Positions 1 through 26,137 of a stretch of 40,543 nucleotides of DNA are shown here, in pieces. Origin of the DNA: Nitrospirae bacterium GWB2_47_37 (GTDB taxonomy: Bacteria > Nitrospirota > Thermodesulfovibrionia > Thermodesulfovibrionales > Dissulfurispiraceae); contig MHDU01000040.1 in NCBI GenBank assembly GCA_001803635.1, positions 1 through 40,543 on the forward strand. Direction: 5' to 3'. A program made the translations under genes and the position numbers. The notes beneath the pieces were generated by a model. That model did no database searches. It was not told where the DNA came from and worked only from the letters and a program-made list of their open reading frames with translations. Numbering within the stretch: position 1 is the stretch's first letter; every line of letters starts with the position of its first letter.

Positions 1-1087
1 GTATGACGAATCCGATAACCGGCGTAAAGATCAGGTTTGTGAGCGGAGATATAACCGAAAAATAATGAAAATAATAAGCAACTAAAGGGGCTGTTCCGAT
101 AGACGCGGCGAGGGATATTTTCAGCGCGGTAGAGCACCGGCGCAATAGATTAGAGGTTAGAGTGTAAAGTTTGGAGTCGGCTCCGGGCTCTATACTGCCG
201 TCCTGACGTTCTTCCGCATCTTCTTCTGTTTTGGCGCTCCGTTGAGCGACAATTCCGATGCACAAGACGGCGATGAACGAAAGCTGAAACGAGAGGTCGA
301 GTATTGAATCGGGCCGGATCAGAATAATAACAACCGCCGCAAAGAGAAGCGTGTTCAACCAGAATCCCTTTCTCTGGATCAGAAGGCCGAAGAGAAACAG
401 GCTTATCATTATAAACGCCCTGATCGAAGGTATGCTCATCCCTGAAATACCTAAATAGGCTATCATGAAAGGAGCGCATAACATCGCGGCGATCTGCGAG
501 GGAGTAAGATATAAAGAAAGCCTGACGAACAGATTATACGGCAGTCTCTTAACCGAAAACCTGAATACCCTGAACAACATGAAAAGCAGCAATCCGAAGT
601 GAGCGCCCGATATGCTCAGGATGTGAGCGAGTCCTGTCGAATTGAACGCGTCCTTCGTTTCTTTTGCCGTCAGGCTTCGCTCCCCTGTTATTATAGACAT
701 GAGAAACGCGGCTGACTCTTCCGAAAAATTATCCCTGATATTCTTATTGATCTTTAACCGCGCTCTTTGAAAAAAGCCCGCGCTGCCGGCGTCTGTTTCG
801 TTAATCGCCATACTGCCCGATAACGGATTCGCACTGCCGCCCGGATTTAGGAAATAAGCATCTCCTCCGATGTCGGGAAAAGGCTGTTCCGGAGCATACG
901 ACGCCTTTGCGTAATAAAAACCTGAAACTGCAATGATAATGAGGACGGCGACAGGCAATACGCGATGTCTTCTCTTAACGACAAATACGGCGAGCAGTAT
1001 TAACGATAGGAAAATGCCTGTAATGGGGAAAAATCTATGAACATAAAAAAGCGAAGAACCGTATATGAAAGATATGAAATATAGCAT
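1..1087 (-). CDS. comEC: ComEC/Rec2 family competence protein (3' part cut by window edge)
   Basis: The reverse strand reads open from an ATG at 1087 to the window edge, 362 codons, with an in-frame TAA three codons upstream of that ATG. The N-terminus has hydrophobic segments. A segment reading AHILSISGAHFGLLL matches the competence-domain signature, and a later GMSIPSIRAFIM matches the other conserved motif (usually PSxxRA). Several further membrane helices follow. In this family the protein forms the inner-membrane channel for single-stranded DNA uptake; a C-terminal metallo-beta-lactamase domain, if present, would lie outside the window. It starts 36 nt after the glmM stop and is probably the last gene seen of the minus-strand block. 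The family call is secure from the two motifs. An active uptake system is not shown here. Confidence 0.85.
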   Translation of the reverse strand, partial: MLYFISFIYGSSLFYVHRFFPITGIFLSLILLAVFVVKRRHRVLPVAVLIIIAVSGFYYAKASYAPEQPFPDIGGDAYFLNPGGSANPLSGSMAINETDAGSAGFFQRARLKINKNIRDNFSEESAAFLMSIITGERSLTAKETKDAFNSTGLAHILSISGAHFGLLLFMLFRVFRFSVKRLPYNLFVRLSLYLTPSQIAAMLCAPFMIAYLGISGMSIPSIRAFIMISLFLFGLLIQRKGFWLNTLLFAAVVIILIRPDSILDLSFQLSFIAVLCIGIVAQRSAKTEEDAEERQDGSIEPGADSKLYTLTSNLLRRCSTALKISLAASIGTAPLVAYYFHYFSVISPLTNLIFTPVIGFVI

Positions 1088-8526: not shown

Positions 8527-8639
8527 TTATTTATCCTACCAAACCGTTTCTAAATATGCTAATATTGTCGTCATAAAAGGAGAAAATGCCAACTTGGCAT
8601 ATTGTTATGTTGGCCTGCAAGAAAGAGGAATATGAGACC

Positions 8640-9176
8640 ATGAATCCAAAAATCGTTATCAGGAACGAGACGCATGACGATGTTTGCGCGATAACTGAGG
8701 TGACTATCGCAGCGTTCAAGACCTTGGAGATCAGCAACCACACGGAGCAGTTCATCATCGAGGCGCTACGTGCCGCCAAAGCTCTTACGGTATCGCTGGT
8801 TGCAGAAATAGATGGCCGAGTGATAGGACATATTGCTTTCTCTCCCGTGACCATTTCCGATGGCACCTCCAACTGGTATGGACTTGGACCTGTTTCGGTG
8901 CTGCCGGCGTACCAGCGGCATGGTATCGGTAAAGCGCTGATACAGGAAGGATTGTCACGTCTGAAAGACATGAATGCTCAAGGATGTTGTCTCGTGGGAC
9001 ATCCGGATTACTACAGGAAATTCGGATTCACAAACATGTCTGGACTTGTGCATGAGGGAGTGCCACAAGAGGTCTTCTTTGCTCTACCTTTCGACGGGCA
9101 TACTCCGCAGGGCAATGTCGCTTTCCATGAAGGGTTCAAAGCGGATGGCCAACAAGAGGGTGCAGGCGACGCTTAA
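8640..9176 (+). CDS. GNAT family N-acetyltransferase (YhbS-like)
   Basis: 178 aa from the ATG at 8640, where the product begins NPKIVIRNETHDD as in the family; an in-frame ATG at 8586 with AAGGAG only 3 nt away would add 18 residues. The acetyl-CoA-binding signature is VLPAYQRHGIGKALIQEGL (RxxGxG/A type), preceded by the usual VIGHIAFSPV strand; the C-terminal GHPDYYRKFGF is typical of COG3153 proteins. Transfers acetyl from CoA to an unknown amine. It is divergent from prmC and isolated, and its last codons run into an attC-like sequence, suggesting it may be a former integron cassette. Confidence 0.85.
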   Translation: MNPKIVIRNETHDDVCAITEVTIAAFKTLEISNHTEQFIIEALRAAKALTVSLVAEIDGRVIGHIAFSPVTISDGTSNWYGLGPVSVLPAYQRHGIGKALIQEGLSRLKDMNAQGCCLVGHPDYYRKFGFTNMSGLVHEGVPQEVFFALPFDGHTPQGNVAFHEGFKADGQQEGAGDA

Positions 9177-9258: not shown

Positions 9259-9308
9259 TTTCACAATGTGAAAATTACCTTTACCTGTTATGGTTGCGCT
9301 GATATAAT
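9259..9308 (+). promoter_or_regulatory. Predicted promoter and palindromic operator upstream of the CHAT gene
   Basis: A -10 hexamer TATAAT (9303-9308) sits 17 nt after TTTACC (9280-9285, four of six matches to the -35 consensus). Just upstream is a perfect 15-base palindrome TTTCACAATGTGAAA (9259-9273), a plausible regulator-binding site. The gene starts about 70 nt after the -10. Confidence 0.5.
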
Positions 9309-9377: not shown

Positions 9378-12332
9378 ATGAGACGAATTGCTATAGGTTT
9401 ATGTATTGTTCTGGCAGTCTTATTTTTATGTAATTTTTCTTCCGCAGAGACATCGCAGGAAGAATATAATAGGGCGGCTGCGCTTTTTAATGAGGGACAG
9501 AAGCTATTCAATGTTTCGGATTTCAGAGGGGCGATTCAGAAATGGGAAGCTGCCCTTTCCATCTACCAAAGGCTCAGCAGCAAACAGGGAATCGGAGCCG
9601 CAATCGGCAATCTGGGGCTTGCATACTATTCTTTAGGCGACTACAGAAAGGCCATCACCTATTATGAAAAAGCCCTTGCCATAGATGAAGAGATAGGCGA
9701 TAAAAAGGGCAAGGGAGATAATCTCAGCAATCTGGGGAATGCATACAGAAATTTAGGCGACTACAGAAAGGCAATAAGCTATTATGAAAAGGCACTGGCC
9801 ATAGATGAAGAGATAGGCAATAAACAGGGCAAGGGACAGCGTCTCGGCAATCTGGGGGTTGCGTACAGTAATTTAGGCGATTACCGTAATGCCATCAGTT
9901 TCTATGAAAAGGCGCTTACGCTTAATAAAGAAATCGGTGTGCCCTATGATATCCCTGAAGGCAACCTTGCAGACGCATACCTTGCCTTAGACCGTGACGA
10001 AGAGGCGTTCATTATCTACACAAAGCAGGACCACACGGTTAGGCTCGGCAGATATTATCTAAAGAAAAAGGATTATAAACAGGCAAAAGAGCAATTTGAC
10101 CGCGACAGAGAAAAATACGAAAAGGCAAAACGCGTTGGGATAATAGTTCCTCAATGGATAGGACTTGGGCTTTCCAATGAGGGATTGAAACAGTATGAAG
10201 AGGCATACAAATGGTTCCAAAAGGCAATTGCCTTTATGGAAGAACAGAGGGCGGCGCTCACATCTGCTGAAAGGGAGCATTATTTTGAGGGCAATGAATT
10301 CGGCTTCCCGAGGATAGAGGCATACGAAGGCGCTGTCCGTTGTGCCTTCCTGCTCGGCAAATTTGACGAGGCATTCTACTGGGCGGAAAACACAAGAGGC
10401 AGAATCTTTTCAGAACTCCTCTCCAAAAGACATTCGGGCAAGGGCTACAAGATTCCATCCGGGCTTGCCAAAGAGGAAGAAGACCTGACCGACAGAATAA
10501 GACAGAACAAGAAACAACAGCAGACCGCCTTTGAAAAAAACAACCCTGGACTTTTGAAACAGCTTGAAGCAGAATACCCTCCTCTGAAAACAAAGATGGA
10601 CAATCTTATTGACCGACTCCGCAAGGAATATCCTCAATACGCATCTATTAAATACCCCCAGCCTGTTAAACTCTCCCAGCTTGCCTTAAACAAAGGAGAG
10701 ACCATTATAGAATATGAAGTAACCAGCCCCTACACTATAGGACTTGTAATCCGCGACGGCAAAGTAATAAAGGCATTCAAGGTTGAAAAGACCCGCGCAG
10801 AACTTGAAGGATTGATAAAGAGATTCCGCTCTCCTTTTCAGGAAGGCGCAGATATAAATGCGTTCAGCCTTAACCTCTCAAAAAGCCTTACAGACCTGCT
10901 TATAAAACCAGCGCTTTCTGTTTTAAACAAAGGAGAACGCCTTATCATTATCCCTGATGAATCCTTAAGTCTGCTTCCATTTGAAGCCCTTCTCATCTCT
11001 GCGCCTGCTGAGGCGCTCAAGGAAGAAGAAAATTTGCTTGCACAAGCCGCAAAACAGACAGCGGGCATAGTTGACAAGAACGCCATAATCAGGGGGCTAA
11101 CCAAAGCTCCGGTTACAAGAAGCAGCGGCGTAAATGTAGCTTCACGTGTAACCACCCACATACTTTTTGATACAGGTTCAGCCCAGATAAAGAACGAATC
11201 ACAGAAGCAGATGCAGGAGATAGCCTCTGCCCTTATATCCAAAGAACTCAAGAATACAGTTATAAAGATAGAAGGCCATACAGACAGCATAGGCGATTCA
11301 AAATATAACCTGAAGCTTTCAGCTAAAAGGGCACAGGCCATTTATGACTATCTCGTAAAAAACGGGGTTAAGCCAAGCCTCCTCAGCTATACAGGGAAAG
11401 GAGATACCGAACCTATAGCTGACAACAAAGATGAAAAAGGCAGAAGTCTTAACCGCAGGGTTGATTTTGTCCGTGTTACTGATAAAGATGACATAAAGCA
11501 GAAGGCGTCTTTGCTTAAGGGATTTGTATATGCCACGGATGAATATCCAATCAGCTACTATCAGTCTGCCTCAGTGCTTTCGCTCCATAGAGGATTGCAT
11601 ATAGCCCGCGAAAAGGGGAAAACCTTCTTTGGGTTGGGCGACCCTGTGTTTGAAATAAAAGACACCAGATCCGCAAATCTGAGGTCTGTTAAGATTGTTG
11701 CAAAGGCCGGAATATCGTCCACGGACATCGCAGAGACAGAAGAGACAAAAGACGCAGGATATAAATTTACCCGACTTGTAAACACGGAAAAAGAGGTCAA
11801 AGAAGTGAGCAAGCTTTTTGACAAGGCAAAGATATTCATTGGTTCTGATGCCTCTGAGGAAAAACTGAAGGCAGAGGATTTAAGGACAAGGCGGTATGTG
11901 CTTTTTTCAACACATGGGATACTTGGAAACGAGATTCCATATATCAAACAGCCTGCATTGGTTTTAAACTTGATTGGCAATGACAAGGAAGACGGCTTTC
12001 TGACCGCTTCTGAGATATTTGAAATGGACTTAAACGCGGACATAGTGGGGCTTTCTGCCTGCAAGACAGGACTCGGTGTGCAATCTGCCGGAGAAGGTGT
12101 GGTAGGGCTTTCAAGGGCGTTCATGTATGCAGGCACAGACACAGTGCTTGTGAGCCTCTGGAGCGTTGCGGATGAGTCAACATATAAGCTGATGGCCAAG
12201 TTTTTCGACGGGCTGAAAAACGGCAAGGACAAAATGACCGCTCTAAAAAATGCCAAAGACTATCTGCGTAATAACGGCTATGACAATCCATTCTACTGGG
12301 CGCCGTTTATTCTCATGGGCGAGACGAATTGA
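9378..12332 (+). CDS. Secreted TPR-CHAT peptidase-like protein with nested OmpA domain
   Basis: 984 aa from ATG 9378, chosen over 9333 because a purine-rich GGGGGAATAAG precedes it and the product starts with a signal peptide (MRRIAIGLCIVLAVLFLCNFSSA). Residues about 27-310 are TPRs, three of them (76-195) near-identical 40-aa units. A CHAT (caspase HetF associated with TPRs) domain begins near 443 with IIEYEVTSPYTIGLV and reaches LLPFEALL (about 532), is interrupted by an OmpA-like domain (about 592-699, with GHTDS Asp636 and LSAKRA Arg651, the two residues that hold diaminopimelate in OmpA), then resumes at SASVLSLHR (about 729). The predicted catalytic dyad is His846 (FSTHG) and Cys895 (LSACKTG). 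The C-terminal SLWSVADEST and FYWAPFILMG are typical CHAT. Probably a periplasmic, peptidoglycan-tethered protease or scaffold; its target is unknown. Confidence 0.9.
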   Translation: MRRIAIGLCIVLAVLFLCNFSSAETSQEEYNRAAALFNEGQKLFNVSDFRGAIQKWEAALSIYQRLSSKQGIGAAIGNLGLAYYSLGDYRKAITYYEKALAIDEEIGDKKGKGDNLSNLGNAYRNLGDYRKAISYYEKALAIDEEIGNKQGKGQRLGNLGVAYSNLGDYRNAISFYEKALTLNKEIGVPYDIPEGNLADAYLALDRDEEAFIIYTKQDHTVRLGRYYLKKKDYKQAKEQFDRDREKYEKAKRVGIIVPQWIGLGLSNEGLKQYEEAYKWFQKAIAFMEEQRAALTSAEREHYFEGNEFGFPRIEAYEGAVRCAFLLGKFDEAFYWAENTRGRIFSELLSKRHSGKGYKIPSGLAKEEEDLTDRIRQNKKQQQTAFEKNNPGLLKQLEAEYPPLKTKMDNLIDRLRKEYPQYASIKYPQPVKLSQLALNKGETIIEYEVTSPYTIGLVIRDGKVIKAFKVEKTRAELEGLIKRFRSPFQEGADINAFSLNLSKSLTDLLIKPALSVLNKGERLIIIPDESLSLLPFEALLISAPAEALKEEENLLAQAAKQTAGIVDKNAIIRGLTKAPVTRSSGVNVASRVTTHILFDTGSAQIKNESQKQMQEIASALISKELKNTVIKIEGHTDSIGDSKYNLKLSAKRAQAIYDYLVKNGVKPSLLSYTGKGDTEPIADNKDEKGRSLNRRVDFVRVTDKDDIKQKASLLKGFVYATDEYPISYYQSASVLSLHRGLHIAREKGKTFFGLGDPVFEIKDTRSANLRSVKIVAKAGISSTDIAETEETKDAGYKFTRLVNTEKEVKEVSKLFDKAKIFIGSDASEEKLKAEDLRTRRYVLFSTHGILGNEIPYIKQPALVLNLIGNDKEDGFLTASEIFEMDLNADIVGLSACKTGLGVQSAGEGVVGLSRAFMYAGTDTVLVSLWSVADESTYKLMAKFFDGLKNGKDKMTALKNAKDYLRNNGYDNPFYWAPFILMGETN
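9603..9962 (+). repeat. Three tandem 120-bp TPR-coding repeats
   Basis: Units begin at 9603, 9723 and 9843, each coding for 40 aa of the NLGxAYxxLGDYRxAIxxYEKAL type. The first two units are almost identical at DNA level, including synonymous positions, which points to recent tandem duplication or gene conversion. Confidence 0.85.
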
Positions 12333-12488: not shown

Positions 12489-12707
12489 ATGGCGACTGCC
12501 GTAAGAATATCGGAGAAATTAGTCGATGACGCTAAGAGATACAGCCGTATTGACCATAGATCCGTTACCGGTCAAATAGAGCACTGGGCACAAATCGGCA
12601 AGTGTGCGGAAGAAAATCCGGACTTAACGTACAGTCTTATCAAGGAAATACTTATCGGTCTGCAGGAACTTGAACAGGGAGAGAAATCGGAATATAAGTT
12701 TGAATAA
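12489..12707 (+). CDS. ParD-like type II antitoxin
   Basis: 72-aa protein starting after a strong AGGAGG (spacing about 8). It matches the ParD-like antitoxin family: MATAVRISEKLVDDAKRYSRI, then RSVTGQIEHWAQIGKCAEENP, a ribbon-helix-helix-like N-terminus that would bind its own promoter, and an acidic C-terminal tail (ELEQGEKSEYKFE) suited to wrapping the toxin. It lies 7 nt before the toxin gene. A plausible promoter (TTGCAT 12413-12418, GATAAT 12437-12442, spacer 18) precedes it. Confidence 0.85.
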   Translation: MATAVRISEKLVDDAKRYSRIDHRSVTGQIEHWAQIGKCAEENPDLTYSLIKEILIGLQELEQGEKSEYKFE

Positions 12708-12714
12708 GCACGTA

Positions 12715-12996
12715 ATGAAAATCTATCAATCGAGAACGTTTGAAAATAAAATCAAGAAGTTTTCAAAACAAGAAAAGGCTGCATTAGATGAAGAAATTGG
12801 AAAAATCATTAAAAATCCTCTGACTGGAGAAGAAAAGAAAGGCGACCTCCGAGAGATACACGTCTATAAATTCAAAATTAAATCAATCCGATATCTTCTA
12901 TCATACAGGATGATTAAAAACGGCTTGGAATTAATAATGATTGGCCCACATGAAAATTATTATCGCGAACTGAAAAGCTATTTAAAGCGAAGATAA
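12715..12996 (+). CDS. RelE/ParE family type II toxin
   Basis: 93-aa basic protein started at ATG 12715 (MKIYQSRTFENKIKKF), 7 nt after the antitoxin; an in-frame ATG at 12670 would overlap the antitoxin and adds no conserved residues. The length, the LSYRMIKNGLELIMIGPHENYYRELK C-terminal half and the GDLREIHVYKFK basic strand match the RelE/ParE fold. Members are ribosome-dependent mRNA endonucleases or gyrase poisons; the sequence does not decide which. No good ribosome site of its own, so translation is likely coupled to the antitoxin. Confidence 0.85.
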   Translation: MKIYQSRTFENKIKKFSKQEKAALDEEIGKIIKNPLTGEEKKGDLREIHVYKFKIKSIRYLLSYRMIKNGLELIMIGPHENYYRELKSYLKRR

Positions 12997-13499: not shown

Positions 13500-13590
13500 T
13501 CGATATCCAAAAAACGCTCTGCATAATCCGCAAAAACTGTTATAATATTTACTCTCAATTAGTAGTTTGAAAATTTTAACGGAGTAAAAC

Positions 13591-14724
13591 ATGGAACTGC
13601 CGTCCGGTTTTATAAGCAAAGAGACATGGAATAAGGTGCTCAACTATATCGCACTGAGCGACGAAGAGCCGCCTTATCTGCTCATGGACAAGAAAATTGT
13701 GCAGGATAAGGTATCTATCATCGGCAAAAATATCAGGAATTCGCGGGTATTCTATGCTGTAAAAGCCAATCCTGACATCGAGGTGATAAAGCTCGTGAAT
13801 CCCCTCGGCGTCGGTTTCGAGATAGCATCCGAGGGCGAACTGCAATTGCTCGCTTCGATTAATGTCGAGCCTGAAAGAATTATCACCAGCAACCCTGTGA
13901 AAACCTTTAAATTTCTCGAACAGGCAGTGGAATACGGCGTGAAATATTACGCATACGATTCCTTTGCCGAAGTTGATAAGCTTGCGCGATATGCCCCGGG
14001 CTCCAATGTCTATGTCAGGCTGACTGTTCCGAATGAGGGCAGTGAATGGCCTTTGAGCAAAAAATTCGGCGTGGAGACGGACGAGGCCCTCGACCTTTTG
14101 GTCTATGCAAAGGACAAGGGATTGAATCCCGTGGGCATAACCTTTCATGTAGGCTCGCAGTGCAATAATGTATACAACTGGAATGCTGCGGTGGACAAAG
14201 CAAGGGAGTTATGGGAGATGGCGGAGCAAAAAGGGATTAAGCTCTCGATGCTCAACATCGGCGGAGGCTATCCGATCCGCTATACAAAAAATGTGCCGGA
14301 TATAGAGACCATCGAGAAAAAGGTGGACAAAGTTATCTTCCAGAAATTTCCGCAGGACATAGAGGTATTCATAGAGCCGGGCAGGGCTATGGTCGGAGAT
14401 GCGGGAGTATTCGTGTCCACTGTCATAGGCAAGACCAAAAGGGGCGACGAGAACTGGCTGCACATTGACGTGGGAGTTTTTAACGGCCTCATGGAGAGCG
14501 TAGGAGGCATCAAATACACGTATGTTGTCGGGAGCAGGAACGATCCCATGGCATGGACGATTGCGGGGCCGAGCTGCGACAGTTTCGATGTGATAGACCG
14601 CGAGGTTGAGCTGCCTGAGCCGGAGGTTGGAAACAGGATATTGATACTTTCGAGCGGGGCGTATACGATTTCATACGCATCGGAATTTAACGGTTTCTCG
14701 ATACCTAAGACTATATTGATATGA
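13591..14724 (+). CDS. Ornithine-type decarboxylase (fold III, PLP-dependent)
   Basis: 377-aa alanine-racemase-fold decarboxylase. PLP lysine Lys58 is in YAVKANP, His186 in HVGSQC stacks on PLP, GGGYP binds the phosphate and GPSCDSFDV near residue 330 supplies the cysteine of the partner subunit, as in eukaryotic-type ornithine decarboxylase. Most likely makes putrescine; lysine or carboxynorspermidine decarboxylases share the fold, so the substrate is not proved. GGAG precedes the ATG. It is 25 nt upstream of speE, which would use the putrescine. No speD lies in the window. Confidence 0.85.
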   Translation: MELPSGFISKETWNKVLNYIALSDEEPPYLLMDKKIVQDKVSIIGKNIRNSRVFYAVKANPDIEVIKLVNPLGVGFEIASEGELQLLASINVEPERIITSNPVKTFKFLEQAVEYGVKYYAYDSFAEVDKLARYAPGSNVYVRLTVPNEGSEWPLSKKFGVETDEALDLLVYAKDKGLNPVGITFHVGSQCNNVYNWNAAVDKARELWEMAEQKGIKLSMLNIGGGYPIRYTKNVPDIETIEKKVDKVIFQKFPQDIEVFIEPGRAMVGDAGVFVSTVIGKTKRGDENWLHIDVGVFNGLMESVGGIKYTYVVGSRNDPMAWTIAGPSCDSFDVIDREVELPEPEVGNRILILSSGAYTISYASEFNGFSIPKTILI

Positions 14725-14749
14725 CAACAAAACTTTTCTGGAGGACGAT

Positions 14750-15586
14750 ATGATCAAGTTTTTTGAGAAAGATCCATATGCGCCGATACAATATGTTTAC
14801 GATGTGGAAAAGGTGCTTCATAAGAGCAAAAGCGAGTTTCAGGAGATAATGGTCATTGAAAATCCGCACTTCGGCAAGATGCTCATCCTTGACGGAGTCG
14901 TTCAGATAACGGAGCGCGACGAACTTTTTTATCATGAGATGCTTGTGCATCCGGTTATGCACGCGCATCCGAATCCCAAAAATGTCATAGTGATAGGCGG
15001 CGGCGACGGCGGAACTGTGAGGGAGGTTTTGAGGCACGATTCCATCGAGAAGGTATATTTCATAGAGATAGACGAAGAGGTCATCAATGTGTCCAGGAAA
15101 TTTTTTCCGACGGTTGCGTGCGGCGTTGACGACAAACGGGTCGAGATAAAATGCATGGACGGAGCCGAATTCGTAAAGGGAAGGGACGGAGATATAGACG
15201 CGGTGATAGTTGATTCCACGGACATAGTCGGCTTTGCAAAGAGCCTTTTTACGGTCGAGTTTTTCAAATCGGTAAAAGACTGCCTCACGGATGACGGGAT
15301 GTTCGTAACCCTCTCGGAATCGCTGCATTTCCACAAGGATATCGTCATAGAGGTTCAAGAGGCTATGAAGCTCATATTCCCGATAGTTGATCTCTATACC
15401 GCCCCTATCGCTACTTATGCCGGAAACTGGTGGACATTCTCAGCCGCATCCAAGAAGCACGATTTAAGGCAGATGAGAAGGGATTTCAAGGTTGACACCA
15501 GATATTACAGCGACGAGATACATCAACAGGCATTTATGCCGCCCAAGATGTACGAGAGGCTTATGCAGAGAAAACTGCAGTGGTAG
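14750..15586 (+). CDS. speE: Spermidine synthase (polyamine aminopropyltransferase) SpeE
   Basis: 278 aa. The decarboxylated-SAM pocket GGGDGGT (83-89), the acidic strand YFIEIDEEVI (about 103-112) and the DSTD loop (155-158, in IVDSTDIVGFAKSLFTVEFF) are all present, as is the N-terminal beta hairpin with LILDGVVQITERDE and the YHEMLVH segment. It transfers an aminopropyl group to putrescine, forming spermidine. Starts after GGAGG at normal spacing. Its stop codon is followed at once by the hrcA promoter -35 hexamer, so the polyamine pair and heat-shock operon are adjacent with no spacer. Confidence 0.93.
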   Translation: MIKFFEKDPYAPIQYVYDVEKVLHKSKSEFQEIMVIENPHFGKMLILDGVVQITERDELFYHEMLVHPVMHAHPNPKNVIVIGGGDGGTVREVLRHDSIEKVYFIEIDEEVINVSRKFFPTVACGVDDKRVEIKCMDGAEFVKGRDGDIDAVIVDSTDIVGFAKSLFTVEFFKSVKDCLTDDGMFVTLSESLHFHKDIVIEVQEAMKLIFPIVDLYTAPIATYAGNWWTFSAASKKHDLRQMRRDFKVDTRYYSDEIHQQAFMPPKMYERLMQRKLQW

Positions 15587-15587
15587 C

Positions 15588-15616
15588 TTGACAGCTTTTA
15601 AGGCTTATTGTTAAAT
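15588..15616 (+). promoter_or_regulatory. Promoter of the hrcA-grpE-dnaK-dnaJ operon
   Basis: A perfect -35 TTGACA (15588-15593) begins 2 nt after the speE stop, followed by a 17-nt spacer and TTAAAT (15611-15616) as -10. The CIRCE operator starts 3 nt downstream, covering the expected transcription start, as in HrcA-repressed operons. Confidence 0.8.
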
Positions 15617-15618
15617 TA

Positions 15619-15645
15619 TTAGCACTCTCATGTCGAGAGTGCTAA
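15619..15645. promoter_or_regulatory. CIRCE operator (HrcA-binding site)
   Basis: Exact consensus inverted repeat TTAGCACTC-N9-GAGTGCTAA. HrcA dimers bind this site and repress the operon until heat stress. Its placement just after the -10 and 25 nt before hrcA indicates autoregulation of the whole chaperone operon. Confidence 0.97.
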
Positions 15646-15669
15646 TCTTGTTTTATTATGGTGGTAAAT

Positions 15670-16722
15670 ATGCTGGATGAGAGGAGTAGACAGGTTCTCC
15701 GCGCCGTTGTCCAGAGCTATATAAATAAGCTTGAACCGGTCGGCTCGCGTTTTGTCACAAAGGAATACGCATTAGGCTGCTCTCCGGCCACCATACGTAA
15801 TATAATGGCCGACCTCGAAGATTTAGGGTTCTTAAGCCAACCGCATACCTCTGCCGGAAGGGTTCCTACGGACAAGGGTTATCGGTTTTACGTGAATTTC
15901 CTCGGGGATGCCGGCGAGTACGGCGAACAGGACGCAGAGCTTAAGGACTGTGTCTGCCGTTTTACGCGGAGGCTCGAAGGCATCGGCAGCGATTTAAACG
16001 GCATGTTCGTAGAGGTGACGAACGCCCTTTCTTCGATGTCGAATTATATAGGCGTCGTTATGCCTCCGAGGCCTGAAAGCACGACGTTCAACAGGATCGA
16101 TTTCATAAGGTACAAAGCGGATAAGGTCGTCGCTGTTTTGCTGACCGACGAAGGCGTGATTAAGAATAAGATGCTCTCCGTGGATGCGGCTTTTACACAG
16201 GAAGACCTCAACAGGATCGCGGCCTATCTCAATTCCGAATACTCGGGACGCACGATCGATGAGATAAAAAGCATGCTCATCAAAAAAATGCGTCAGGAAA
16301 AGGCCGCGTGGGATAAGCTCATAACAAGGGCCATAAAGATATACGAAGAGGCCACATCTTTTGCGGAAGAAGATTTTTTCGTTTCCGGGCTTTACGATGT
16401 GATGGGTCTGCCGGATTTTTCGGACATGTCACGGATAAGGGAGATATCCCGCGCAATAAAGGATAAGCACGCTATATTAAAACTCATCGAGGAGCTTTCC
16501 GGCGTCTCCGGCGTGCAGGTGGTCATAGGGAACGAGAATCCCGTAGAGGAATTGAAGGGGCTGAGCGTGGTGGCATCCACGTATAAAGAGGGAGAAAGGC
16601 CGATGGGTGTTATAGCCCTCATCGGGCCGACAAGAATGGATTATTCCAAGGCCATATACATGGTCGATGCCATTTCAAAGTGCATAAGCAGGACATTCGA
16701 GCAACGGACGGAGGTAGTTTAA
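15670..16722 (+). CDS. hrcA: Heat-inducible transcription repressor HrcA
   Basis: 350 aa from ATG 15670 (MLDERSRQVLRAVVQ), preferred because a GGTGG stands upstream and family members start here; ATG 15658 adds only four residues. An N-terminal winged helix (through ATIRNIMADLEDLGFLSQPHTSAGRVPTDKGYR) is followed by the GAF-like dimerisation region with an inserted segment and the C-terminal IGPTRMDYSKAI signature. It binds the CIRCE element 25 nt upstream and is normally kept folded by GroEL. Its stop overlaps the grpE start (TAATG). Confidence 0.97.
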   Translation: MLDERSRQVLRAVVQSYINKLEPVGSRFVTKEYALGCSPATIRNIMADLEDLGFLSQPHTSAGRVPTDKGYRFYVNFLGDAGEYGEQDAELKDCVCRFTRRLEGIGSDLNGMFVEVTNALSSMSNYIGVVMPPRPESTTFNRIDFIRYKADKVVAVLLTDEGVIKNKMLSVDAAFTQEDLNRIAAYLNSEYSGRTIDEIKSMLIKKMRQEKAAWDKLITRAIKIYEEATSFAEEDFFVSGLYDVMGLPDFSDMSRIREISRAIKDKHAILKLIEELSGVSGVQVVIGNENPVEELKGLSVVASTYKEGERPMGVIALIGPTRMDYSKAIYMVDAISKCISRTFEQRTEVV

Positions 16723-17252
16723 TGGAAGAAAACACGGAAGTAACCGAAAAGCCGGAAGGGCCCGGCGTTTCCATCGAAGTAGAGGACAAACCGGCAGAGA
16801 CGGTCGAATCGATACAGGCGGAACTTGCAGACGCAAAGGATAAATACCTGCGGCTCTATGCGGAATTCGAAAACTATAAAAGAAAGGTTCAGAAGGATAA
16901 GGAAGAGCTTATAAAGTATTCCAACGAGTCCTTGATGTATGAGATATTGCCGGCGCTGGATAATCTCGAAATGGCATTAAGGCACTCGGAGGGTGGAAAT
17001 TCCGAACCTCTGGCAAAAGGCGTTGAAAATACCCTCAGGGAAATGAACAGGATACTCGAAAAATTCGGGCTTACGGCGATAGAGGCAATGGGAAAGCCTT
17101 TTGACCCGGCCTATCACCACGCGATGTCGCAGATAGAAAGGGACGACATGGATAACAATACGGTAGTCGAGGAACTCAGAAAGGGATACATCTATAACGA
17201 AAAAGTTTTAAGGCCCTCGCTCGTGGCCGTTTCGAAAAAGAGTGCGGGTTAA
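16722..17252 (+). CDS. grpE: Nucleotide exchange factor GrpE
   Basis: 176 aa beginning at the ATG that shares one base with the hrcA stop; GGAGG lies just upstream inside hrcA. Acidic, disordered N-terminus, a long coiled coil (about 35-75) containing the signature RLYAEFENYKRKVQKDKEE, and a C-terminal beta domain with NPAYHHAM-like DPAYHHAMSQ. Releases ADP from DnaK. Confidence 0.97.
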   Translation: MEENTEVTEKPEGPGVSIEVEDKPAETVESIQAELADAKDKYLRLYAEFENYKRKVQKDKEELIKYSNESLMYEILPALDNLEMALRHSEGGNSEPLAKGVENTLREMNRILEKFGLTAIEAMGKPFDPAYHHAMSQIERDDMDNNTVVEELRKGYIYNEKVLRPSLVAVSKKSAG

Positions 17253-17314
17253 GTTTTCATGTTATTGATCGGAAATTAAAAACCATAAAATGAGATAAAG
17301 ACAAGGAGGATGAG

Positions 17315-19225
17315 ATGGGAAAAACTATAGGTATAGACCTCGGAACCACGAACTCGGTCGTTGCGGTTGTAATCGGCGGAGAGCCGGTGGTAATACCGAA
17401 TCAGGAAGGAAACAGGACGACGCCGTCCGTTGTCGCCTTTACGGAAAAGGGCGAAAGACTTGTCGGCCAGATAGCAAAGCGGCAGGCAATAACGAACCCC
17501 GAAAACACGATATTCTCGATAAAAAGGCTTATGGGAAGGAAATATAATTCGCCTCAAGTAGACCATGCAAAAAAGCGGCTTCCTTATCACATGGCTGAAG
17601 CGCCGAACGGAGATGCCCATGTGGAGGCGAGGGGCAAGAAGTATTCGCCTCCGGAAATATCGGCAATGATACTCCAGAAACTGAAACAGGCCGCAGAGGA
17701 CTATCTCGGCGAAACCGTCACCGAGGCGGTAATCACGGTGCCGGCTTATTTCGACGACAGCCAGAGGCAGGCTACAAAGGATGCGGGTCAGATCGCGGGA
17801 CTTAATGTGCTGAGGATCATAAACGAGCCCACGGCAGCAGCCCTCGCGTACGGCCTTGAAAAGAAAAAAGAGGAAAAGGTCGTGGTGTACGACCTCGGAG
17901 GAGGAACCTTCGACGTCTCTGTGCTCGAAATCGGCGAAGGCGTAATAGAGGTTAAATCCACTAACGGAGATACATACCTCGGGGGCGACGACTTCGACCT
18001 CAGGATCATGGATTGGATGGTCGAGGAATTCAAAAAGGATCAGGGCGTAGACGTTAAAAATGACAAGATGGCCCTTCAGAGACTGAAAGAGGGCGCAGAG
18101 AGGGCGAAAATAGAACTTTCTACGGCATCCGAGACAGAGATAAACCTTCCGTTCATAACCGCCGACGCTACAGGGCCTAAACATTTATTGATGAAGCTTT
18201 CGAGAGCGAAGTTCGAGCAGCTTACGGACGACTTCATACAGAGGACCATAGACCCCTGCAAAAGGGCGCTTTCCGATGCCGGTTTTTCCACGACCGATAT
18301 GGATGAAGTCATCCTTGTAGGAGGACAAACAAGGACTCCGAAGGTTCAGCAGACAGTACAGGGCTATTTCGGGAAAGAGCCGCACAAGGGCGTCAACCCC
18401 GACGAAGTGGTCGCGGTAGGCGCGGCAATTCAGGCGGCTGTCCTTAAGGGAGAGGTAAAGGAAGTCCTTCTTCTCGATGTGACTCCGCTGTCTCTCGGTA
18501 TCGAGACACTCGGCGGCATATTTACCAAGATGATAGAGAGGAACACGACCATCCCGACAAAGAAGACACAGACATTCTCTACGGCATCGGACAATCAGCC
18601 TGCGGTTACCATTAAGGTGCATCAGGGAGAAAGGGAGATGGCATCGGACAATAAACTGCTCGGGGTTTTCGAACTCGTAGGGATTCCCCCTGCGCCGAGA
18701 GGCCTGCCTCAGGTAGAGGTTACATTCGACATCGACGCGAACGGCATACTTCACGTCTCCGCTAAAGATTTAGGCACAGGCAAGGAACAATCCATAAAGA
18801 TTACCGCGTCGAGCGGTCTTTCTCAGGACGAGATAAAGAATATGATGCGCGACGCGGAATCGCACGCGACGGAGGATCACAAGAGGAAGGAACTCGCGGA
18901 GGCGCGTAATACTGCGGATACCCTCGTATATTCGGTAGAAAAATCGGTGCAGGATTACGGAGACAAACTTACGGAAGACGAGAAAAAAGAGATAGAAGCC
19001 GCCATCGAGAAATGCAAAAAGGTAAAGGATTCGAGCAGCGACCCTGCCGAGATAAAGAACGCGGTCGAAGAACTCACAAAGGCATCGCACAAAATTGCGG
19101 AGCACGTGTATAAAGCGGCGCAGGAGCAGACTGCTGCAAGCGGCGACGGCAAGCCTGAGTCCAAGGCCAAACCTGAAGATGAAGCCATGGAAGCGGAATT
19201 CGAAGATGTGGATAAGAATAAATAA
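17315..19225 (+). CDS. dnaK: Molecular chaperone DnaK (Hsp70)
   Basis: 636 aa preceded by AGGAGG. Nucleotide-binding domain motifs [13 protein letters not shown] (N-terminus), [33 protein letters not shown] and [11 protein letters not shown]; the [15 protein letters not shown] linker and substrate-binding domain follow, and the C-terminus ends [11 protein letters not shown]. All residues usual for an active Hsp70 are present. It starts 62 nt after grpE and its stop overlaps the dnaJ start by one base. Confidence 0.98.
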
Positions 19226-20334
19226 TGAAAGATTATTATAAGCTTCTCGGCGTAGGCCGGGATGCCGGTCAGGAAGACATAAAAAAGGCATTCCGGCAGT
19301 TAGCCTTAAAATACCATCCGGACAGGAATCAGGGGAACAAAGAGTCCGAAGAAAAGTTCAAAGAAATAAACGAGGCATACACATGCCTCGGCGATTCCGA
19401 AAAACGCGCCCATTACGACAGATACGGTACTTCCGAAGGAATGGGCGCCGGCGCCGGATTCGGAGCCGGGGCTGGTTTCGGCGGCTTTACAGACGTATTC
19501 GAAGACATATTCGAAGACTTCTTCGGCTCGTTCGGTGGATACAAAAAGGCAAAATCTACAAAAGGCGCGGATTTAAGATACAACCTCACCATAACCCTTG
19601 AAGAAGCGGCCTTCGGCGTGGAAAGGTCTATAAAAATTCCGAGGTGGCAGACATGCGACACGTGCGGCGGTTCGGGTGCGGAACCGGGGACATCGCCCGT
19701 TACATGCGCTAATTGTAAAGGGACCGGGCACATACGATTTCAGCAGGGGTTCTTCAGCGTTTCGAAGACCTGCGGCAAGTGTCAGGGTTCAGGCAGCATA
19801 ATCACAAGCCCCTGCAAGGGATGTAAAGGGAACGGCAAGGTAAGGGTTCAAAGGGAAATATCCGTGAAGATTCCCGCGGGTGTCGATACCGGCTCGCGTT
19901 TAAGGATGAGCGGGGAAGGCGACTTCGGCAGTTACGGAGGGCCTCCCGGGGATTTATATATTGTGCTTAATGTAGATGAGCATTCCTTCTTTAAACGGGA
20001 CGGCATGGACATATACTGCCAATTCCCGATATCGTTTACAAAGGCGGTTTTCGGAGGCGAAATAGACGTCCCTACCCTCAACGGTCCTGCCAAACTCAAA
20101 ATCCCGGCAGGAACCCAGTCCGGCAAATCGTTTCATCTCAAAGGCAAGGGCATACCGAGGCTCGGGAGCCATCAGAGGGGGGATCAGATAGTAAGCATAT
20201 ATATAGACGTGCCGAAGAAACTGACGCCGAGACAGAAGGAACTCCTCGAGGAATTTGCGGGAATAAGCGAAGAAAACAATGACGAGGCTTCAAAGGGATT
20301 CAAGAACAAGCTCAAAGACCTTTTTTCAGCGTAG
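19225..20334 (+). CDS. dnaJ: Chaperone DnaJ (Hsp40)
   Basis: 369-aa type I J-protein: J domain with HPD in [10 protein letters not shown] (residues about 31-40), a Gly/Phe-rich linker ([15 protein letters not shown]), four zinc-binding repeats ([32 protein letters not shown]) and C-terminal substrate-binding domains. Stimulates DnaK ATPase and delivers unfolded clients. Last gene of the CIRCE-controlled operon; converges on the lipoprotein gene 2 nt downstream with no clear terminator. Confidence 0.97.
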
Positions 20335-23424: not shown

Positions 23425-23572
23425 TAATACATTAAAGGCAAAGCATTTCCGCTTCATTCTCGCAAGGCATCCGGCCTTGCTCCGAAGCTGCGACAGCCCG
23501 CTTAAACATCCGTGTTACGCTTAGTCTGTCGAAGTCGCTCCAATACTTTACCTTTAATGCTTAAATGTATTA
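23425..23572. other. Structured intergenic element, copy A (upstream of nrdJ)
   Basis: 148-bp segment that folds as one unit: closing stem TAATACATT (23425-23433) with AATGTATTA (23564-23572), continuing AAAGG with CCTTT; internal hairpin GCAAGGC-ATCCG-GCCTTGC (23462-23480); second hairpin AACA-TCCG-TGTT (23505-23516); and CGACAG/CTGTCG pairing around it. Its core aligns along its length with 26024-26116 on the other side of nrdJ. Could be a structured RNA or a palindromic mobile repeat; strand not known. Confidence 0.7.
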
Positions 23573-26000: not shown

Positions 26001-26137
26001 AAAAATGCAGGGTATAATATTTTCGCTCATTCTCGAAAGGCTTCCAAGCCTTTCTCCGAGGCTGAGCCCGCCCGCTTAGACATCCATGTCACGCTTGGGC
26101 TGCCTAAGTCCGCTCAAATACCATATCCTGCATTTTT
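26001..26137. other. Structured intergenic element, copy B (downstream of nrdJ)
   Basis: 137-bp unit closed by AAAAATGCAGGGTAT (26001-26015) pairing with ATATCCTGCATTTTT (26123-26137). Inside are hairpins GAAAGGCT-TCCA-AGCCTTTC (26035-26054) and GACA-TCCA-TGTC (26079-26090). Relative to copy A, one pair in each hairpin changes on both sides (C-G to A-T, A-T to G-C), preserving pairing. The T-rich end means it may also terminate nrdJ transcription. Confidence 0.7.

Follow-up and report, generated by a model that had tools for sequence, protein, structure and literature searches.

An OmpA-like domain nested within the CHAT module of a predicted exported TPR protein from a Nitrospirae bacterium

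The window, by which we mean the whole 40,543-nucleotide stretch analysed from Nitrospirae bacterium GWB2_47_37, carries an intact open reading frame of 984 amino acids, from an ATG at 9378 to a stop codon ending at 12332, whose product combines a putative export signal, TPR repeats, a CHAT module and, inside that module, an OmpA-like domain (Table 1). Pfam matched TPR families at about residues 77-185. The CHAT family (PF12770) was matched at residues 718-982 (1.3e-55; 189 bits against a curated cut-off of 24) over profile positions 50-289, and a whole-genome search recovered the missing piece (profile 3-58) at 10875-11039, upstream of the match and in frame with it. For the OmpA family (PF00691), all 98 profile positions were matched, at residues 596-693 with 2.5e-26. 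The nesting of an OmpA-like domain between two CHAT parts, as proposed in the preliminary description, is thus borne out by Pfam and the same-frame upstream piece. The loop from the PFEAL motif to the YxQSA motif is 188 residues long in the window protein and 15-34 residues long in 17 relatives.

Both residues of the His-Cys catalytic dyad, H846 and C895, are present, and the THG and SAC motifs are conserved among relatives. In the OmpA-like domain, D636 and R651 are separated by 15 residues, which is the spacing of D271 and R286, the diaminopimelate-binding residues of Acinetobacter OmpA (PMC6572160); the preliminary description had drawn this parallel, and the positions it gave for these four residues of the window protein were all exact. 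Its claim of an exported TPR protein agrees with the N-terminal segment, which resembles a signal peptide, and with the Pfam TPR matches. In the hydropathy profile of the 984-residue protein the export signal is the sole strongly hydrophobic stretch. A Zorya ZorB (MotB-like) identity was rejected, since the PADLOC match is to the OmpA-like region and no hydrophobic helix follows the export signal.

Table 1. Features of the TPR-CHAT gene and its upstream region in the window
Feature	Position	Strand	Basis
Promoter-like site TTTACC-17-TATAAT with extended TG	9280..9308	+	
Gene for the 984-aa TPR-CHAT protein with its nested OmpA domain	9378..12332	+	ORF and Pfam
Putative export signal, residues 1-24, MRRIAIGLCIVLAVLFLCNFSSA/E	9378..9449	+	By eye and hydropathy
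TPR repeats, about residues 44-290	9507..10247	+	Pfam
CHAT N-terminal (pseudoprotease-like) half, residues 440-548, contains LLPFEALLIS	10695..11021	+	
Insert linker 1, residues 549-591, conserved IIRGLT motif	11022..11150	+	
OmpA-like domain, predicted to bind peptidoglycan, residues 592-699	11151..11474	+	
D636	11283-11285	+	
R651	11328-11330	+	
Insert linker 2, residues 700-713	11475..11516	+	
CHAT C-terminal part, residues 714-984, including the caspase-like subdomain (about 742-984)	11517..12329	+	
H846	11913-11915	+	
C895	12060-12062	+	

In order to find other proteins of this design, a composite OmpA-CHAT profile was searched across 176 genomes of the order, and one further chimera was recovered in another family (G413, contig C348). 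Its frame of 1152 residues has the same CHAT-OmpA-CHAT order, with a PFEAL-to-YxQSA loop of 192 residues, and runs into the contig end inside CHAT, just before the catalytic Cys. The two chimeras are 69.4% identical in the OmpA domain, 67.9% in the N-terminal CHAT part and 67.8% in the C-terminal CHAT part, while their linkers are 41% (first) and 21% (second) identical. With synonymous sites near saturation, pN and pS were 0.205 and 0.766 for OmpA and 0.195 and 0.747 for the C-terminal CHAT part, values from which the OmpA domain is judged to be under purifying selection equal in strength to that on CHAT. A related search of 345 genomes of the phylum gave no third chimera, a weak negative given the few candidates scored per genome, and no place in the plasmids and phages searched covered at least 80% of the CHAT-OmpA-CHAT stretch. 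On another, short contig of G413 (C391, L082) we observed a second, broken TPR-CHAT-OmpA copy that starts the same insert, together with IS21-like istA/istB genes recognized by eye. Sequence comparison indicates that the CHAT-OmpA-CHAT order is a real inherited design, common to two families.

The closest homolog, from Nitrospirae bacterium FK1.bin72 of the same genus (G001; L030), has no OmpA domain: it aligns to window residues 36-550 (71% identity) and 714-984 (84%), and in it these two segments follow directly on each other. A search of contigs for close relatives gave two loci only, both without OmpA, and all the other CHATs checked besides the two chimeras also lack it. In a tree built from the CHAT parts, the window protein, G001, G413 and G255 fall together with 100/100 support and the window and G001 proteins are sisters (81/98), so that the OmpA-inserted copies do not form one clade. 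Given the homologous linkers and the equal divergence, a single OmpA gain followed by at least one loss appears to fit best, and the OmpA-less G001 protein being nested in the clade, OmpA is dispensable in at least one homolog. The G255 homolog (C82, L088) is split across several frames and adjoins a second CHAT frame. No recent donor was found in the same genome, where the best OmpA elsewhere is just 32% identical, nor among 295 genomes of the phylum (best OmpA 40-44% identical). The OmpA genes at three inspected loci (L062, L063 and L064) have no CHAT or caspase neighbours, and no flanking repeats were found.

Besides the window protein, its homologs without OmpA from G001 (L025) and G255 (L088) and the more distant TPR-CHAT proteins L027 and L028 have export signals recognized by eye. 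From their occurrence in OmpA-less homologs and distant TPR-CHATs, export is older than the OmpA insertion. A further TPR-CHAT (L029; G013, C27) has, by eye, the lipobox FISGC, which suggests a lipid-anchored exported CHAT. The premise of the preliminary description that most CHAT proteins are cytosolic proved to be a poor baseline here, since the OmpA-less homologs of the clade and several distant TPR-CHATs also carry an export signal or lipobox.

The location of the gene is not conserved. Over 13518-20066 the window and G001 are 88-90% identical, but the TPR-CHAT gene is missing from G001 there; the G001 copy adjoins argG, whose counterpart in the window genome adjoins a tyrosine recombinase that looks integron-integrase-like by eye (L113, about 250-1180; G000, C32). 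At the G001 homolog, 81% conservation extends over about 100 bases of 5′ flank. In the window the gene lies between a GNAT acetyltransferase gene (8577-9173) and a ParD/ParE-like pair (12489-12993), of which ParE was assigned by Pfam and ParD by eye; G001 has neither the GNAT gene nor the pair at the corresponding place. The gene content suggests that the surroundings are an accessory region, and the difference in location between G001 and the window, that TPR-CHAT genes appear to move as accessory genes. Two stretches of about 105 bases each, at 23436-23546 and 26018-26122 of the window, both match about 9494-9607 of the G001 locus L111 at about 80% and represent a dispersed repeat.

Residues 390-984 of the window chimera were modelled. 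The OmpA domain (about 590-699) was predicted at pLDDT 87-97, and a Foldseek search matched it to OmpA-like crystal structures including 3td5, a complex with the m-DAP stem peptide; the fold proposed earlier for residues 592-699 thus stands. The chimera model as a whole was poor beyond OmpA, with a mean pLDDT of 56.8 and no usable CHAT fold, and the CHAT fold was judged on the OmpA-less G001 homolog (85% identical) instead. That model (pLDDT 70.9, pTM 0.77) found its best structural match in the Craspase TPR-CHAT 8d9f (Z 26.2, 338 aligned, 4.1 Å), and also matched separase (Z of about 22) and DdvA (8rot, Z 21.3). Caspases, MALT1 and SAVED-CHAT align just to the G001 model from about 187-190 on, that is, to window residues of about 742-984, and both H846 and C895 fall in this one contiguous subdomain resembling the Craspase and separase proteases. 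No solved CHAT structure was reached by sequence searches. The insertion point corresponds to positions 153-165 of the G001 model, between strands 150-152 and 170-173 (window 539-541 and 725-728). The model upholds the placement of OmpA inside the CHAT module, as first described, and refines it: the insert lies in the N-terminal, pseudoprotease-like half, with the catalytic caspase-like subdomain uninterrupted.

Known systems share parts of this design. The TPR-CHAT of Craspase (Csx29, type III-E CRISPR) also has TPRs and a CHAT with a His-Cys dyad, but neither an export signal nor OmpA, and the identity is 14%; it is bound to gRAMP/Cas7-11 in the cytoplasm, where its CHAT is allosterically switched (PMC9729208). 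No gRAMP/Cas7-11 or Csx30 lies beside the window gene, where the neighbours with a match are GNAT, the ParE-like toxin, lysA, speE and prmC. The separase protease domain likewise consists of a pseudoprotease and an active protease half, but is eukaryotic and has no OmpA. DdvA (8rot, 8rw5) is a membrane-linked anti-sigma factor with a CHAT-like fold whose TPR-CHAT region is extracytoplasmic; unlike the window protein it is anchored by a transmembrane helix and serves sigma-factor control, and an OmpA domain is absent from the PDB entry titles. The window OmpA domain resembles those of the OmpA, Pal and YiaD type in being full-length and in having both the D and the R that make up the diaminopimelate site, but such domains are normally terminal, on a barrel, lipid or motor protein, whereas here the domain is nested in a protease.

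We consider it probable that the gene encodes an exported, periplasmic cysteine protease of the TPR-CHAT type with a separase/Craspase fold, tethered to peptidoglycan by the nested OmpA domain; its periplasmic location, peptidoglycan binding and protease activity are what we infer for the 984-residue protein. Counting against this reading, a copy lacking OmpA (G001) lies inside the clade, and the domain was found in two genomes only. The signal peptide would deliver the protein to the periplasm, and the OmpA domain, flanked by linkers of about 43 and 14 residues, would grip diaminopimelate stem peptides via D636 and R651 and so keep the protease at the cell wall. The TPR array may select or regulate a protein partner, which H846 and C895 would then cleave. 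The OmpA insertion thus probably ties the protease to the wall, and the preliminary description's placement of a caspase-fold protease there is likely. It had also suggested that wall state is sensed and coupled to proteolysis; the long variable linkers favour tethering alone, which accounts for the data more simply.

Wall sensing is nevertheless plausible, in that the insert lies within the module and not at its end, and by analogy with the allosterically switched CHAT of Craspase. A wall-gated protease, in which OmpA, on binding peptidoglycan, alters the pseudoprotease half and so switches the active site open or shut, would explain why the insert is in the CHAT half adjoining the catalytic subdomain and not terminal, as a plain anchor could be, and target RNA switches the TPR-CHAT of Craspase in a comparable way (PMC9729208). 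We hold this unlikely, however, since the long, poorly conserved linkers suggest a loosely tethered domain and the active site is unchanged in the homolog that has no OmpA. Alternatively, the loop may simply take extra sequence, with OmpA having no particular function and the protein working as its OmpA-less homologs do. The variable length of the CHAT loop and the lack of OmpA in the closest homolog would agree with such a tolerated insertion, which we find improbable given that OmpA has been selected as strongly as CHAT across 61-68% identity and keeps its full ligand-binding motif.

The match of the model to DdvA also raises the case where CHAT is a non-proteolytic scaffold or regulatory domain and OmpA localises a signalling protein; this is most improbable, H846, C895 and their motifs being intact in all close relatives. 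The nearest relative lacks the gene at this site, which could hint that separate OmpA and CHAT genes were joined in assembly. Junctions and linkers are the same in the independent G413 genome, and the reading frame is intact, so the assembly fusion named as a risk in the preliminary description has next to no likelihood and is rejected.

Both domains are ordinary, and what appears to be new is their nested order, which two families share, as no published description combining 'CHAT domain' and 'OmpA' was found. In a census of prokaryotic metacaspases, OmpA was present in 14 operons (PMC3501461), which likewise associates OmpA with a caspase-fold protease, but there the genes are separate and the protease is a metacaspase and not a CHAT; the window protein would be a fused, single-chain counterpart of that reported, unexplained link. 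One may go further and see in it a wall-state sensor and protease in one chain, with peptidoglycan occupancy of OmpA toggling a periplasmic separase-like protease, which we regard as rather unlikely; if true, such a wall-state switch would serve envelope-stress signalling or self-killing on wall breach, for instance by a phage or a competitor. CHAT proteases are known chiefly from defence and signalling in the cytoplasm. The presence of a CHAT and a peptidoglycan grip in one polypeptide, kept across two families, predicts a periplasmic, wall-bound protease.
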